From NCBI RefSeq assembly GCF_000022085.1, contig NC_011894.1:6736001-6800000 (forward strand): DNA of 64,000 bases, given 5' to 3'. The position numbers were made by a program, and so were the translations under genes. Under the pieces are notes generated by a model. That model made no database searches, was not told where the DNA came from, and saw only the letters and a list, made by a program, of their open reading frames with translations. Positions 48,002-51,580 of this stretch are shown here, piece by piece. Source of the stretch: Methylobacterium nodulans ORS 2060. Its GTDB lineage: Bacteria > Pseudomonadota > Alphaproteobacteria > Rhizobiales > Beijerinckiaceae. Each line of letters starts with the position of its first letter. The first letter of the stretch is position 1.

Positions 48002-48742
48002 TCAGAACGTCGAGAACCGGTAGTTCAGGCCGGCCCGGACGAGGCCGAAGGCGGAGCTGTCCGGGGCGACGCCGTAATAGGCGCCCGCGGTGGCGTCGTA
48101 GATCGTGTCGCGGTGCCCACGGTCGAGATTGACGTACAGGCCCTCGAGCCGGGCGCTGAGCCGGTCGGTGATGGCGTATTCGACGCCGCCGCCCGCGGCC
48201 CAGCCGGTGCGGGTCGTGCCGGGCAGGGGGCCGGTATAGGACGCGGCGAAGGACGGCAGGCTGCCGCCCCCATAGGCGAAGCCGCCCGTGCCGTAGACCA
48301 GGATCCGGTCCACCGCGTAGCCGATCCGGCCCCTCACCGTGCCGAACCAGTCGAGGCTCGGGCCGACGTCGTAGAAGGGCGCGGAGCCGACGAGCCCGGT
48401 GCGGCTGCGTCCGAAGGTGGTGCCCTGGATGTCGGCTTCCGCGCCGACCACGAAGCCCGATCCGGGCGTGAACTGGTAATTGTAACCGACCTGACCACCA
48501 CCGACGAAGCCGTCGCGGCCGCCGCCCGTCGAGATCGTGCCGTAGGTCGGATCGGTGAAGCTGTCGCTGCCCGAGCCGAACCCGTAGCCCGCGTTCACGC
48601 CGGCGTAGAAGCCGGTCCAGGTGAAGACCGGCGGGACCGGCAGCGGGGGCGGGGCCGCGTGCCGGGGCAGGTCGGCGGCCAGCGCCGCCGGGCCGAGGCA
48701 GGCGCAGCCGAGCGCTCCGAGGCGGAGGATCGATCGCATCAT
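48002..48742 (-). CDS. Omp25/31-like outer membrane beta-barrel protein
   Basis: 246 residues from the ATG at 48742. A signal peptide (to about residue 22, ALAADL) is followed by a proline-rich linker and a barrel that starts FTWTGFYAGVNAGYGFG, the hallmark of Rhizobiales Omp25/31-type proteins. Alternating strands (VGYNYQFTPGSGFVVGAEAD, GTVRGRIGYAVDRILVYGTG, LSARLEGLYVNLDRG) end in GLNYRFSTF with a terminal aromatic for barrel insertion. An outer-membrane structural protein or porin. It stands alone with a terminator hairpin downstream. Confidence 0.88.
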   Translation of the reverse strand: MMRSILRLGALGCACLGPAALAADLPRHAAPPPLPVPPVFTWTGFYAGVNAGYGFGSGSDSFTDPTYGTISTGGGRDGFVGGGQVGYNYQFTPGSGFVVGAEADIQGTTFGRSRTGLVGSAPFYDVGPSLDWFGTVRGRIGYAVDRILVYGTGGFAYGGGSLPSFAASYTGPLPGTTRTGWAAGGGVEYAITDRLSARLEGLYVNLDRGHRDTIYDATAGAYYGVAPDSSAFGLVRAGLNYRFSTF

Positions 48743-48952: not shown

Positions 48953-49156
48953 CTACAGCGTCCGCAGGATCAGCATCGTCTGGATCGCCACCAGCAGGAC
49001 AGCGCCGCCGATGAGCAGGCACAGCCCGATCATCACCACTCTCTCGCCGCCGTCGCCCGGATCCGCGGCGGGGTCGGACGGCCAGCGGCCGGACAGTTCC
49101 GGCGGCGGGAACGACACGACGCTGTCCGCCGGGAGGTTGCGGAGGGGGCCGGCCAT
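48953..49156 (-). CDS. small membrane protein, 67 aa
   Basis: Hydrophilic proline/aspartate-rich N-terminus (PPPELSGRWPSDPAADPGDG), then one C-terminal membrane helix, VVMIGLCLLIGGAVLLVAIQ. Type II-like single-span protein. It is the second gene of a leftward pair behind the triple palindrome region, 17 bases from the first. Function unknown; co-transcription with the DUF6502 locus region is likely. Confidence 0.6.
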   Translation of the reverse strand: MAGPLRNLPADSVVSFPPPELSGRWPSDPAADPGDGGERVVMIGLCLLIGGAVLLVAIQTMLILRTL

Positions 49157-49173
49157 CGCGCGCCTCGTCGCGT

Positions 49174-49320
49174 TCAGCGGGCCGACAGGGCGGGACGGAC
49201 CAGATCCGCCACCGAGGCGGCGGCCACCGGCATCGCCAGCGCGAGAGCGACCACGAGGCCGCGGCCGACCATGGCGAGCGACGGGACCGGGGAGAACGGC
49301 CGGGGAAGGGATCGAGCCAT
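49174..49320 (-). CDS. small hydrophobic protein, 48 aa
   Basis: From the ATG at 49320: MARSLPRPFSPVPSLAMVGR, then a hydrophobic LVVALALAMPVAAASV. It could be a signal-anchored peptide or a short secreted protein. The start lies 13 bases from the nearest of three 17-bp palindromes, so it is probably under their control. It heads the leftward two-gene unit. The frame extends upstream to 49380 but that part crosses the palindromes. Confidence 0.55.
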   Translation of the reverse strand: MARSLPRPFSPVPSLAMVGRGLVVALALAMPVAAASVADLVRPALSAR

Positions 49321-49333
49321 GATGGCCTCCTTC

Positions 49334-49430
49334 GTGGGAAACTTGACCACGGCGGCCTTGTATGTGGGCAAATTTCCCACGTCAACCGGGATTCCGGCGT
49401 GGGCAGCCGATTTGTGGGATTGTGTCCCAC
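49334..49430. promoter_or_regulatory. three 17-bp GTGGG-N7-CCCAC operator-like sites
   Basis: GTGGGAAACTTGACCAC (49334-49350, one mismatch), GTGGGCAAATTTCCCAC (49364-49380) and GTGGGATTGTGTCCCAC (49414-49430). Centres are 30 and 50 bases apart, about 3 and 5 helical turns. They lie between divergent genes at 49320 and 49455. A weak promoter TTGTGT-N16-TAGAAC overlaps the third site. Confidence 0.8.
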
Positions 49431-49454
49431 GCGTGGTCGGCTAGAACCGAGCCG

Positions 49455-50297
49455 ATGGCCGCGCCCTCTCCCCACGTCCCGCCGGATGCAAGCCGTCTGC
49501 AGGCACCCGTCGCGCGCCTGCTGCGCCCGCTGGTGCGGCTGTTCGTGCGCTGCGGAATCACCTTTCCGGCGCTGACCGACCTCCTGCGCGAGCTCTACGT
49601 CAATGTCGCCGAGTACGACTTCGCGCTGCCGGGCAAGGAGCAGACGGACAGCCGGGTGAGCCTGCTCACGGGCATCCACCGCAAGGAGGTGCGCCGGCTG
49701 CGCGGGGCGGGGGCGCCGGTGAGCGCCGTGCCGGTGGCGGTGTCGCGCACGAGCCGCATCATCGCCCGCTGGCTCGCGGCGCCCGAATTCACGGACGAGC
49801 AGGGCCGCCCCCGACCGCTGCCGCGCGCCTCCGAGACGGAGCCCTCCTTCGAGAGCCTCGTCGCCTCCGTCACCCGCGATCTTCGCCCGCGCGCCGTGCT
49901 CGACGAGTGGCTCGACCGCGGGATCGCCTTCGTGGACGAGGCGGAACGGATCGTGCTGTCGGAGGCCGCCTTCGTGCCGCGGGGCGGCGGCGAGCAGCAG
50001 CTCTACTATTTCGGCCGCAATCTGCACGACCATGTGGCGGCGGCAGTGACGAACATCCTCGAGGAGAGGCCGCGCTTCCTGGAGCGCGCGGTGCATTACG
50101 ATGGTCTCTCGCCCGACCTCGCCCGCCGCCTGGAGGCGCGGGCGCGCGAGATCGCCATGGAGGCGCTGCAGCAGGCGAACCGTGAGGCACATGCCGCCTG
50201 CGAGACCGATCCGGGCGGCGCGGCGCGCTGGAACTTCGGCCTCTACGTCTATGTCGAGGAGGCGCCGGCCCCGCCCCGCGCGAATCCGACGCCGTGA
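49455..50297 (+). CDS. DUF6502 family protein, putative regulator
   Basis: 280 residues from the ATG at 49455; the open frame before it runs through the palindromes. Conserved-looking blocks: ARLLRPLVRLFVRCGITFPA, LTDLLRELYVNVAEYDFAL, SRVSLLTGIHRKEVRRLRG (helix-turn-helix-like, about 75-93), SRIIARWLAAPEFTDEQGRP and FESLVASVTRDLRPRAVLDE, then LYYFGRNLHDHVAAAVTNIL. The middle part resembles a winged DNA-binding domain. Its role is untested; with three palindromes at its own start I infer autoregulation. It overlaps the DUF5666 gene start, so the two are co-translated. Confidence 0.75.
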   Translation: MAAPSPHVPPDASRLQAPVARLLRPLVRLFVRCGITFPALTDLLRELYVNVAEYDFALPGKEQTDSRVSLLTGIHRKEVRRLRGAGAPVSAVPVAVSRTSRIIARWLAAPEFTDEQGRPRPLPRASETEPSFESLVASVTRDLRPRAVLDEWLDRGIAFVDEAERIVLSEAAFVPRGGGEQQLYYFGRNLHDHVAAAVTNILEERPRFLERAVHYDGLSPDLARRLEARAREIAMEALQQANREAHAACETDPGGAARWNFGLYVYVEEAPAPPRANPTP

Positions 50298-51580
50298 GGG
50301 CCCCCGCCGTGTCTCTGAGCCGCCGCGCCCTGCTGCGCCTGCTCTCCGGCGCGAGCGCGCTCGCCTTCGCCCGCCCGGCGGGCGCGGCCGGGGACAAGAT
50401 CCTCGACCAGGGCATCGGCGGCACCGGCATCCGGCCCGGGCCCGACGAGGAGGGCGACCGCGGCATCGGCGGCACGGGCGTCGTCGGCACGATCCGGGCC
50501 TTCGGCAGCATCGTGGTCAACGGCCTGCGCATCGCCTATCCGCCGGACGTTGCCGTGGCCATCGACGGCCGGCCCGCCGGCGTCGTGGAGCTGAAGCTCG
50601 GTCATGTCGTGCAGGTCGTGGCGCGTGCGGACGAATCCGGCCTGTCCACCGCGCGCATCGACGTCCTCCACGAGGTGGTCGGGCCGGTGACGGCGGTCGG
50701 GCGCGACCGCCTCACGGTGCTGGGCCAGACCGTCGCCACGCGGGGCGCCGCGGAGCCGCGCCGCTGGCGCCTCGGCGAGCGGGTGGCGGTGAGCGGCCTG
50801 CGCCGGCCGGACGGCGTCATCGCGGCGAGCCGGATCGATCCGGCGGGCGACCGTCCCGCCCTCGTCGCCGGGCCGGTGCGGCGGGCCCCCGGCGGCACGC
50901 CGCGCATCGGCACCCTGCCGCTGCCGGGCCTGGATCCCGCGCTCGTCGGGCGCCGGGCCGTGGTCGAGGGCGAGGTGGCCGGGCGGCGTCTCGCCATCGC
51001 GGAGAGCCGTGAGGCCGGCCGGCCCTTCGGGCCCGAGGTGGGCCGCGTCTCGATCGAAGCCTTCGTGGCCCGCGACGGCGGGCGCCTGCGCCTCGGCTCG
51101 GGCCTTGAGGTGGCGGGCAGCGCTGCCGCGCTGCCGCGCTCCGGCGGCCTCGCCGTGATCGATGCCGCGGTCGGCCGGGAAGGCCGCCTGACCGTCGAGT
51201 CCCTGCGCCTGCGCCGGGATCCGGCGGAGAGTGGCCGGAGCGGGCCGGGCGCCGCCGACCCCGTCGGGCGGGGCGGCGTCGACGCGCCGGGCGGGCGCGG
51301 GCCGGGTGGCCGCGGTGTCGAGGGGCCGGCCCAGCCGGGCAGTCCCGGCGGCCTCGGCCGGGGCGGCGTCCCGCTCGATCGCCGGATGCCCGGGGATGCG
51401 GGCGGCTTCGCGCCGCATGGCGGCCCAGGCAGGCCCGGGGGGCTCGCCCCGCCGGGCGGCTTCACGGCGCCGGGTGGGGCGGGACCCGGCGGCTTCGCTC
51501 CGCCCGGTGGCTTCGGCGCACCCGGGGGCCCGGGCGGCTTCGGGCCGCCCGGCGGCGGAGGCTTCGGCGGGCGCCGCTGA
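50294..51580 (+). CDS. secreted DUF5666-repeat protein with Gly-rich tail
   Basis: 428 residues from a GTG overlapping the DUF6502 stop. A twin-arginine-like signal (SRRALLRLLSGASALAFARP) leads it out of the cytoplasm. The mature part repeats GIGGTGI and has DUF5666-like beta units (TIRAFGSIVVNGLRIAYP, VGPVTAVGRDRLTVLGQTVA). The last about 100 residues are low-complexity with repeated GGF and PPGG, like adhesive or disordered extracellular tails. It is co-translated with DUF6502 and probably works with it. Function unknown. Confidence 0.75.
   Translation: MRAPAVSLSRRALLRLLSGASALAFARPAGAAGDKILDQGIGGTGIRPGPDEEGDRGIGGTGVVGTIRAFGSIVVNGLRIAYPPDVAVAIDGRPAGVVELKLGHVVQVVARADESGLSTARIDVLHEVVGPVTAVGRDRLTVLGQTVATRGAAEPRRWRLGERVAVSGLRRPDGVIAASRIDPAGDRPALVAGPVRRAPGGTPRIGTLPLPGLDPALVGRRAVVEGEVAGRRLAIAESREAGRPFGPEVGRVSIEAFVARDGGRLRLGSGLEVAGSAAALPRSGGLAVIDAAVGREGRLTVESLRLRRDPAESGRSGPGAADPVGRGGVDAPGGRGPGGRGVEGPAQPGSPGGLGRGGVPLDRRMPGDAGGFAPHGGPGRPGGLAPPGGFTAPGGAGPGGFAPPGGFGAPGGPGGFGPPGGGGFGGRR

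Follow-up and report, generated by a model that had tools for sequence, protein, structure and literature searches.

The window, the whole 64,000-nucleotide stretch of Methylobacterium nodulans ORS 2060 DNA analysed here, spans positions 6736001-6800000 of a 7,772,460-base contig. It contains a DUF6502 gene directly followed by a DUF5666 gene, and three palindromes (A, B and C), with start-to-start spacings of 30 and 50 bp, lie between this pair and a divergent gene for a small protein (Table 1). The initial annotation had described three identical copies of GTGGG-N7-CCCAC. Two of them (B and C) are exact, whereas A carries one mismatch.

Table 1. Features of the DUF6502-DUF5666 locus (coordinates of the window).
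Feature	Coordinates	Strand	Description
Second small membrane protein ORF	48953..49156	-	67 aa; clade-specific
Divergent small gene	49174..49320	-	48 aa, single TM (by eye); start 49320 behind RBS AAGGAGG
Palindrome A	49334..49350		GTGGGAAACTTGACCAC; 1 mismatch; in 5' end / leader of divergent small gene
Predicted divergent promoter	49357..49385	-	TTGACG (49385-49380), 17 nt, TACAAG (49362-49357); from sequence and conserved layout
Palindrome B	49364..49380		GTGGGCAAATTTCCCAC; exact GTGGG-N7-CCCAC; in -35/-10 spacer of predicted divergent promoter
Palindrome C	49414..49430		GTGGGATTGTGTCCCAC; exact GTGGG-N7-CCCAC; likely DUF6502 -35 box at its centre
Predicted DUF6502 promoter	49420..49447	+	TTGTGT (49420-49425), 16 nt, TAGAAC (49442-49447), 7 nt to ATG
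DUF6502 gene	49455..50297	+	280 aa; PF20112, E 5.2e-34
DUF5666 gene	50294..51580	+	428 aa; PF18914, E 8.9e-11; start overlaps DUF6502 stop by 4 nt

We compared this locus with two sets of relatives. The near set comprises 111 loci, of which 80, termed here the named loci, are the best 80 of 146 relatives confirmed in genome contigs; because these are close kin (67-88% DUF6502 protein identity), they do not amount to many independent observations. The distant set holds 174 loci: 94 newly returned by searches of genomes sampled from the class and phylum of the window's genome and from the class and family of G743, a multi-copy genome considered below, and 80 hand-picked from the remaining matches in G743's class and family rather than all matches; 172 of them have usable upstream DNA. 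A few of its rows are non-independent, being two pieces of one gene or tandem copies.

The DUF6502 protein is a full-length match to PF20112 (117.8 bits against a curated cut-off of 27, residues 15-272), a family described by Pfam as of unknown function, for which we propose here an operator and a role as regulator. A helix-turn-helix (HTH) is predicted around T64-R83 (TDSRVSLLTGIHRKEVRRLR), and a conserved HTH-like signature lies in DUF6502 around T-x-S-R-[IV]-S-x-x-T-G-x-x-R-[KR]-[DE]-V. No known HTH family was matched significantly; the weak matches obtained include several to HTH/winged-helix families, and the best match of the N-terminal part to a solved structure was weak (E 0.074). For the full family, no relative of solved structure was found at E up to 10. 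The window protein matched no Pfam family other than DUF6502 at E up to 0.1, no other family reached E 0.01 in any of 59 homologs, and the Pfam profiles of TetR, MarR, GntR, LysR and other repressors all stayed below their cut-offs. Two protein searches, whose results may share members, returned 2,548 and 4,977 homologs. DUF6502 is common: it was found in 74 of the 149 genomes related to that of the window, and in 15/385 sampled genomes of the window genome's class and 21/398 of its phylum. Sampling around G743 gave 99/369 genomes with DUF6502 in its class and 59/150 in its family. We also looked for a defence or phage link of the locus and rejected it: PHROGs gave no match and PADLOC a single weak one (E 0.043).

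A DUF5666 homolog follows DUF6502 by coordinates in 79 of the 80 named loci, the exception (L072) lying at a contig end, and in 127 of the 174 distant loci according to a profile grown from the named loci. The window protein matches PF18914 with 42.4 bits against a curated cut-off of 27, and all ten distant downstream proteins tested also exceed this cut-off. No more than 60 nt separate the chosen DUF5666 start from the DUF6502 stop in 108/109 near and 119/127 distant cases (medians 11 and -4, respectively). Among the 149 relatives, 71 genomes carry both families, three DUF6502 only and one (G036) DUF5666 only. The window protein begins with a Tat-like N-terminus (SRRALLRLL) and ends in a Gly/Pro-rich tail. 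A crude RR (Tat-like) pattern was present in 23/109 near and 4/127 distant proteins, and a lipobox pattern in 2/109 near and 89/127 distant ones. Gene order and signal sequences thus back the proposal of the initial annotation that DUF5666 is the coupled, exported product; Tat export, its further suggestion, may apply to the window protein but does not appear to be general. Two DUF6502 genes without DUF5666 (L290 and L291) stand beside exported-looking or lipoprotein-like genes, with TGGG-N7-CCCA palindromes in between. The passages of three papers that name DUF5666 mention it in a table or list (PMC12455991; PMC10714799; PMC13255231).

Both small membrane proteins had been regarded as partners of the system. 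The divergent one is indeed conserved: a profile found it in place in 51 of 81 sets (the named loci and the window), and of the 11 further matches, the eight listed are longer frames that overlap this position. The second has a homolog in only 10 of the 80 named loci. A gene for an outer-membrane beta-barrel protein (PF13505) lies at 48002-48742, downstream of the small genes, and many of the named loci likewise have a homolog on this side of DUF6502.

The exact palindrome occurs twice in the window as opposed to 0.17 times expected from shuffling (at least two copies in 2 of 100 shuffles), whereas at one mismatch four copies were found against 4.1 expected, i.e., without excess. Across the whole genome (8.84 Mb), the exact pattern is found at 7 places and a reversed control pattern at 11, so a lone copy means little, and the weight of the evidence lies in the clustering of the palindromes and their conservation across species. 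Three of the five further exact palindromes of the genome were considered as additional DUF6502 targets and set aside. The one at 2349877 looks like chance and precedes an ORF that we take to be transposase-like; the one at 5030809 also looks like chance and has no evident target gene. The exact palindrome place GTGGGTTCGAATCCCAC recurs in many genomes among the matches listed and presumably corresponds to a tRNA T-arm, which it resembles.

In the test that the initial annotation had proposed, the palindrome did recur before other DUF6502 genes. With at most one mismatch it lies upstream in all 80 named loci, and an exact copy is found within 250 bp upstream of DUF6502 in 78 of them; the other 910,718 bp of the same loci contain 11 exact copies, a background of 0.003 per 250 bp. 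Backward or wrongly spaced control patterns matched 0-4 of the 80 loci, with three exceptions at one mismatch (inverted N9, 14/80; direct N10, 18/80; direct N12, 32/80) that may originate in overlaps inside the same palindrome cluster. Beyond the named set, exact TGGG-N7-CCCA was present in 30 of 31 further near-relative loci. The named loci mostly bear three sites (56/80), otherwise two (20/80) or one (4/80), and many have a GTGGG..ACCAC site at the relative place of palindrome A. Spacings of 30/31 and 59 are the most frequent, and 49 occurs in eleven pairs. Since the spacings vary, we abandoned the helical phasing of three and five turns seen in the window as a defining feature. On sequence grounds, we take the palindromes to be real, conserved operators.

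The positions of the sites relative to promoter-like elements are conserved as well. For the C site, we compared 80 distinct regions from the 111 near loci, after dropping repeats and regions without GTGGGATTG-N3-CCCAC. At a distance of 16 nt past the TTG hexamer within the site, 65 of these regions have the T and 64 the A (positions 29-30), and the first in-frame start lies 23 or 24 nt past the site in 64/80. In the window, the DUF6502 transcript is probably leaderless, with its predicted -35 element inside palindrome C. Of the 80 named loci, 70 have a TTGAC on the opposite strand no more than 1 bp away from a palindrome, and after a further 17 nt the T is found in 66 and the A in 69 of these 70. 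Because this TTGAC-17-TA layout is conserved at the palindrome, B would fill the spacer of the divergent promoter. A strict scan of 49150-49650 for the E. coli-type consensus found neither predicted promoter.

The distant loci were sorted by the predicted recognition helix into H-type (G-x-HR), T/S/N-RK and T/S/N-RR. Allowing one mismatch, GTGGG-N7-CCCAC was found at 43/73 H-type loci vs 0/75 T/S/N-RK loci (Fisher 7e-18), and TTGGG-N8-CCCAA at 2/73 vs 40/75 (Fisher 6e-13), both tests ignoring relatedness. At the same stringency, ATGTG-N7-CACAT occurs at 7 of 12 T/S/N-RR loci vs 1 of 75 T/S/N-RK loci; the T/S/N-RR loci are mixed, with TTGGG-N8 also present at three of the 12. When the exact core TGGG..CCCA was scanned over spacers of 3-12, the H-type loci peaked at 7 (39/73) and the T/S/N loci at 8 (42/91), with exact TGGG-N7-CCCA in 1/91 T/S/N loci, exact TGGG-N8-CCCA in 1/73 H-type loci and at most two hits in a reversed-sequence control. 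About half of the distant loci (34/73 H-type and 49/91 T/S/N) lack an exact core of their own type nearby.

The tree places this difference between subfamilies. In a FastTree tree of 181 rows built with the HTH columns removed, trait changes were counted over the 91 rows bearing both traits, and the operator register changed once and the helix class three times. Three independent pairs differ in the helix: in one of them the register differs the same way and in two there is no difference. The match between operator and helix is thus one event between subfamilies, and with one of three pairs in agreement we do not regard it as proven that the helix residue switches the register.

Genomes with several DUF6502 copies, of which 17 were listed for comparison of paralogs, allow both operator forms to be seen side by side. 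In three of them (G743, G1352 and G1008), members of both subfamilies are preceded by a recognisable site, each with the spacing of its own subfamily: N8 at L127 vs N7 at L145 and L147 in G743, N8 at L180 vs N7 (one mismatch) at L275 in G1352, and N8 at L238 vs N7 at L264 in G1008. L147 combines an H-type helix and the N7 register with the TTGGG flank of the other type. No recognisable site was found at L146 and L274, and in G886, G927 and G1023 one or both subfamilies have none. The operator form, N7 or N8, follows the DUF6502 subfamily, also between the paralogs of these three genomes, as would be expected if DUF6502 were the binder. Because the form follows the subfamily even within one genome, and because the sites precede DUF6502 across classes, our best reading is that DUF6502 represents an uncharacterised family of HTH-type regulators that binds the palindromes, with its own operon, the divergent gene and the exported DUF5666 protein under its control. 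We hold this reading with good, though not full, confidence.

DUF6502 would accordingly act as a one-component DNA-binding regulator, presumably as a dimer on each palindromic operator. Occupying C, it would cover the -35 element of its own promoter, and from B and A it would cover the spacer and the start region of the divergent promoter. In the simplest case, DUF6502 would repress both DUF6502-DUF5666 and the small membrane-protein gene until some signal relieves the repression, so that the exported DUF5666 protein and the small membrane protein would be made together when needed. The autoregulated switch envisaged by the initial annotation is compatible with site positions that fit operators at both divergent promoters and with the operator type following the subfamily. 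Alternatively, DUF6502 might bind the sites mainly as an activator, or as an activator on one side and a repressor on the other. Three sites and two divergent promoters leave room for a dual role, and the spacings do cluster, at 30/31 and at either 49 or 59, ten bases apart. The overlap of C with the likely -35, the filling of the spacer by B, and the placement in the other subfamily, where 26 of the 38 T/S/N sites whose start codon was placed leave no more than 4 nt between their end and that codon, argue against it. A -35 overlap, a promoter spacer and a site just before the start codon are the usual positions of repressors, and we regard activation or a dual role as unlikely.

It is also conceivable that another regulator uses the palindromes as its operators and counts the DUF6502 operon among its targets, and the distribution of the sites within the genus bears on this point. 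The strict palindrome GTGGGANNNNNTCCCAC was found in 54/54 DUF6502-positive vs 2/17 DUF6502-negative Methylobacterium genomes (among G000-G070), an absence from 15/17 that is partly trivial because the DUF6502 locus itself is missing there; in some positive genomes (e.g., G040 and G057), what was listed is not the C site but a second one. Outside the genus, within the order, the strict palindrome fails to track DUF6502 (1/5 positive and 4/43 negative genomes). G036 retains a DUF6502 remnant of 69 residues, and its 4.8-kb region lacks the site. G027 keeps a relic of the C site (L308:2983-2999), followed by what looks by eye like a DUF5666 remnant, and G055 has an intact, perfect site before a DUF6894 gene, yet DUF6502 was undetectable in either genome, in G055 at E up to 10. 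The relic and the perfect site would suit a different regulator, as would the weakly recognised HTH of DUF6502; both genomes could instead be recent losses of DUF6502.

Several genomes of the genus carry a second palindrome, and in many cases it begins 30-43 nt upstream of where a DUF6894 gene of 80-88 aa starts. Among the 30 genomes returned as loci, out of 51 with a DUF6894 match, 23 have the site before this gene (21 exact, two with one mismatch), a count in which the Pfam identity was tested on one gene and some genes are paralogs rather than orthologs. DUF6502-positive genomes have it in 22 of 27 cases and DUF6502-negative ones in one of three (present in G055, absent from G004 and G025). 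In other Methylobacterium, DUF6894 is thus a likely second target of the palindrome-binding regulator; the window's own genome has no DUF6894 match at E 1e-20. DUF6894-like genes with a palindrome 30-43 nt upstream were seen in L292-L298, L300-L305, L309, L310, L312-L332, L336 and L339, with one mismatch in L321 and L323. In L299, L306, L307 and L289, a palindrome precedes a gene for a Ser-rich protein of about 190-210 aa that starts with or contains MSTIS, and in the last three this site lies near the DUF6502 locus. Among open-licence PubMed Central papers, none was found on DUF6502, PF20112 or DUF6894, and a search there for the C-site palindrome gave nothing relevant among the matches listed.

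Weighed together, the absence of the palindrome from most DUF6502-negative genomes, the lack of the DUF6894 site in two of three of them and an operator type that follows the DUF6502 subfamily even between paralogs make a different regulator improbable, more so than activation by DUF6502. That the palindromes function in RNA, as hairpins or terminators, and not as binding sites for a protein is hardly credible, for although they are inverted repeats near start codons, C lies upstream of the predicted transcription start, asymmetric sites (GTGTG..CCCAC, GTGGG..ACCAC) recur in many of the 80 named loci without compensating change, and no terminator-like site was found in 49150-49650.

If DUF6502 is the regulator that binds the palindromes, the locus would resemble known systems in part. 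TetR, MarR and similar proteins are autoregulated divergent one-component repressors, and the DUF6502 locus likewise has a divergent target, palindromic operators over both predicted promoters and a predicted HTH. DUF6502 differs from them in having no above-cut-off match to these families and in its putative target, where an exported DUF5666 protein takes the place of a pump or an enzyme. MraZ also binds TGGG-type repeats, and its sites share the TGGG core with the palindromes described here. However, MraZ boxes are direct repeats, whereas those of the DUF6502 loci are inverted, and the window has no match to the MraZ family.

With a regulator role for DUF6502, two families that lack an assigned function would become one system open to testing, its binding site and its conserved exported target already in hand. 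Genomes whose paralogs differ in operator provide a natural set for following how recognition helix and site spacing change together. More tentatively, and with considerable doubt, the helix types and their sites might form a readable operator code, in which they pair with GTGGG-N7, TTGGG-N8 or TGTG-N7, and DUF6502, DUF5666 and the small membrane protein might constitute an envelope feedback module, in which the exported or the membrane protein would report the state of the envelope to the regulator.
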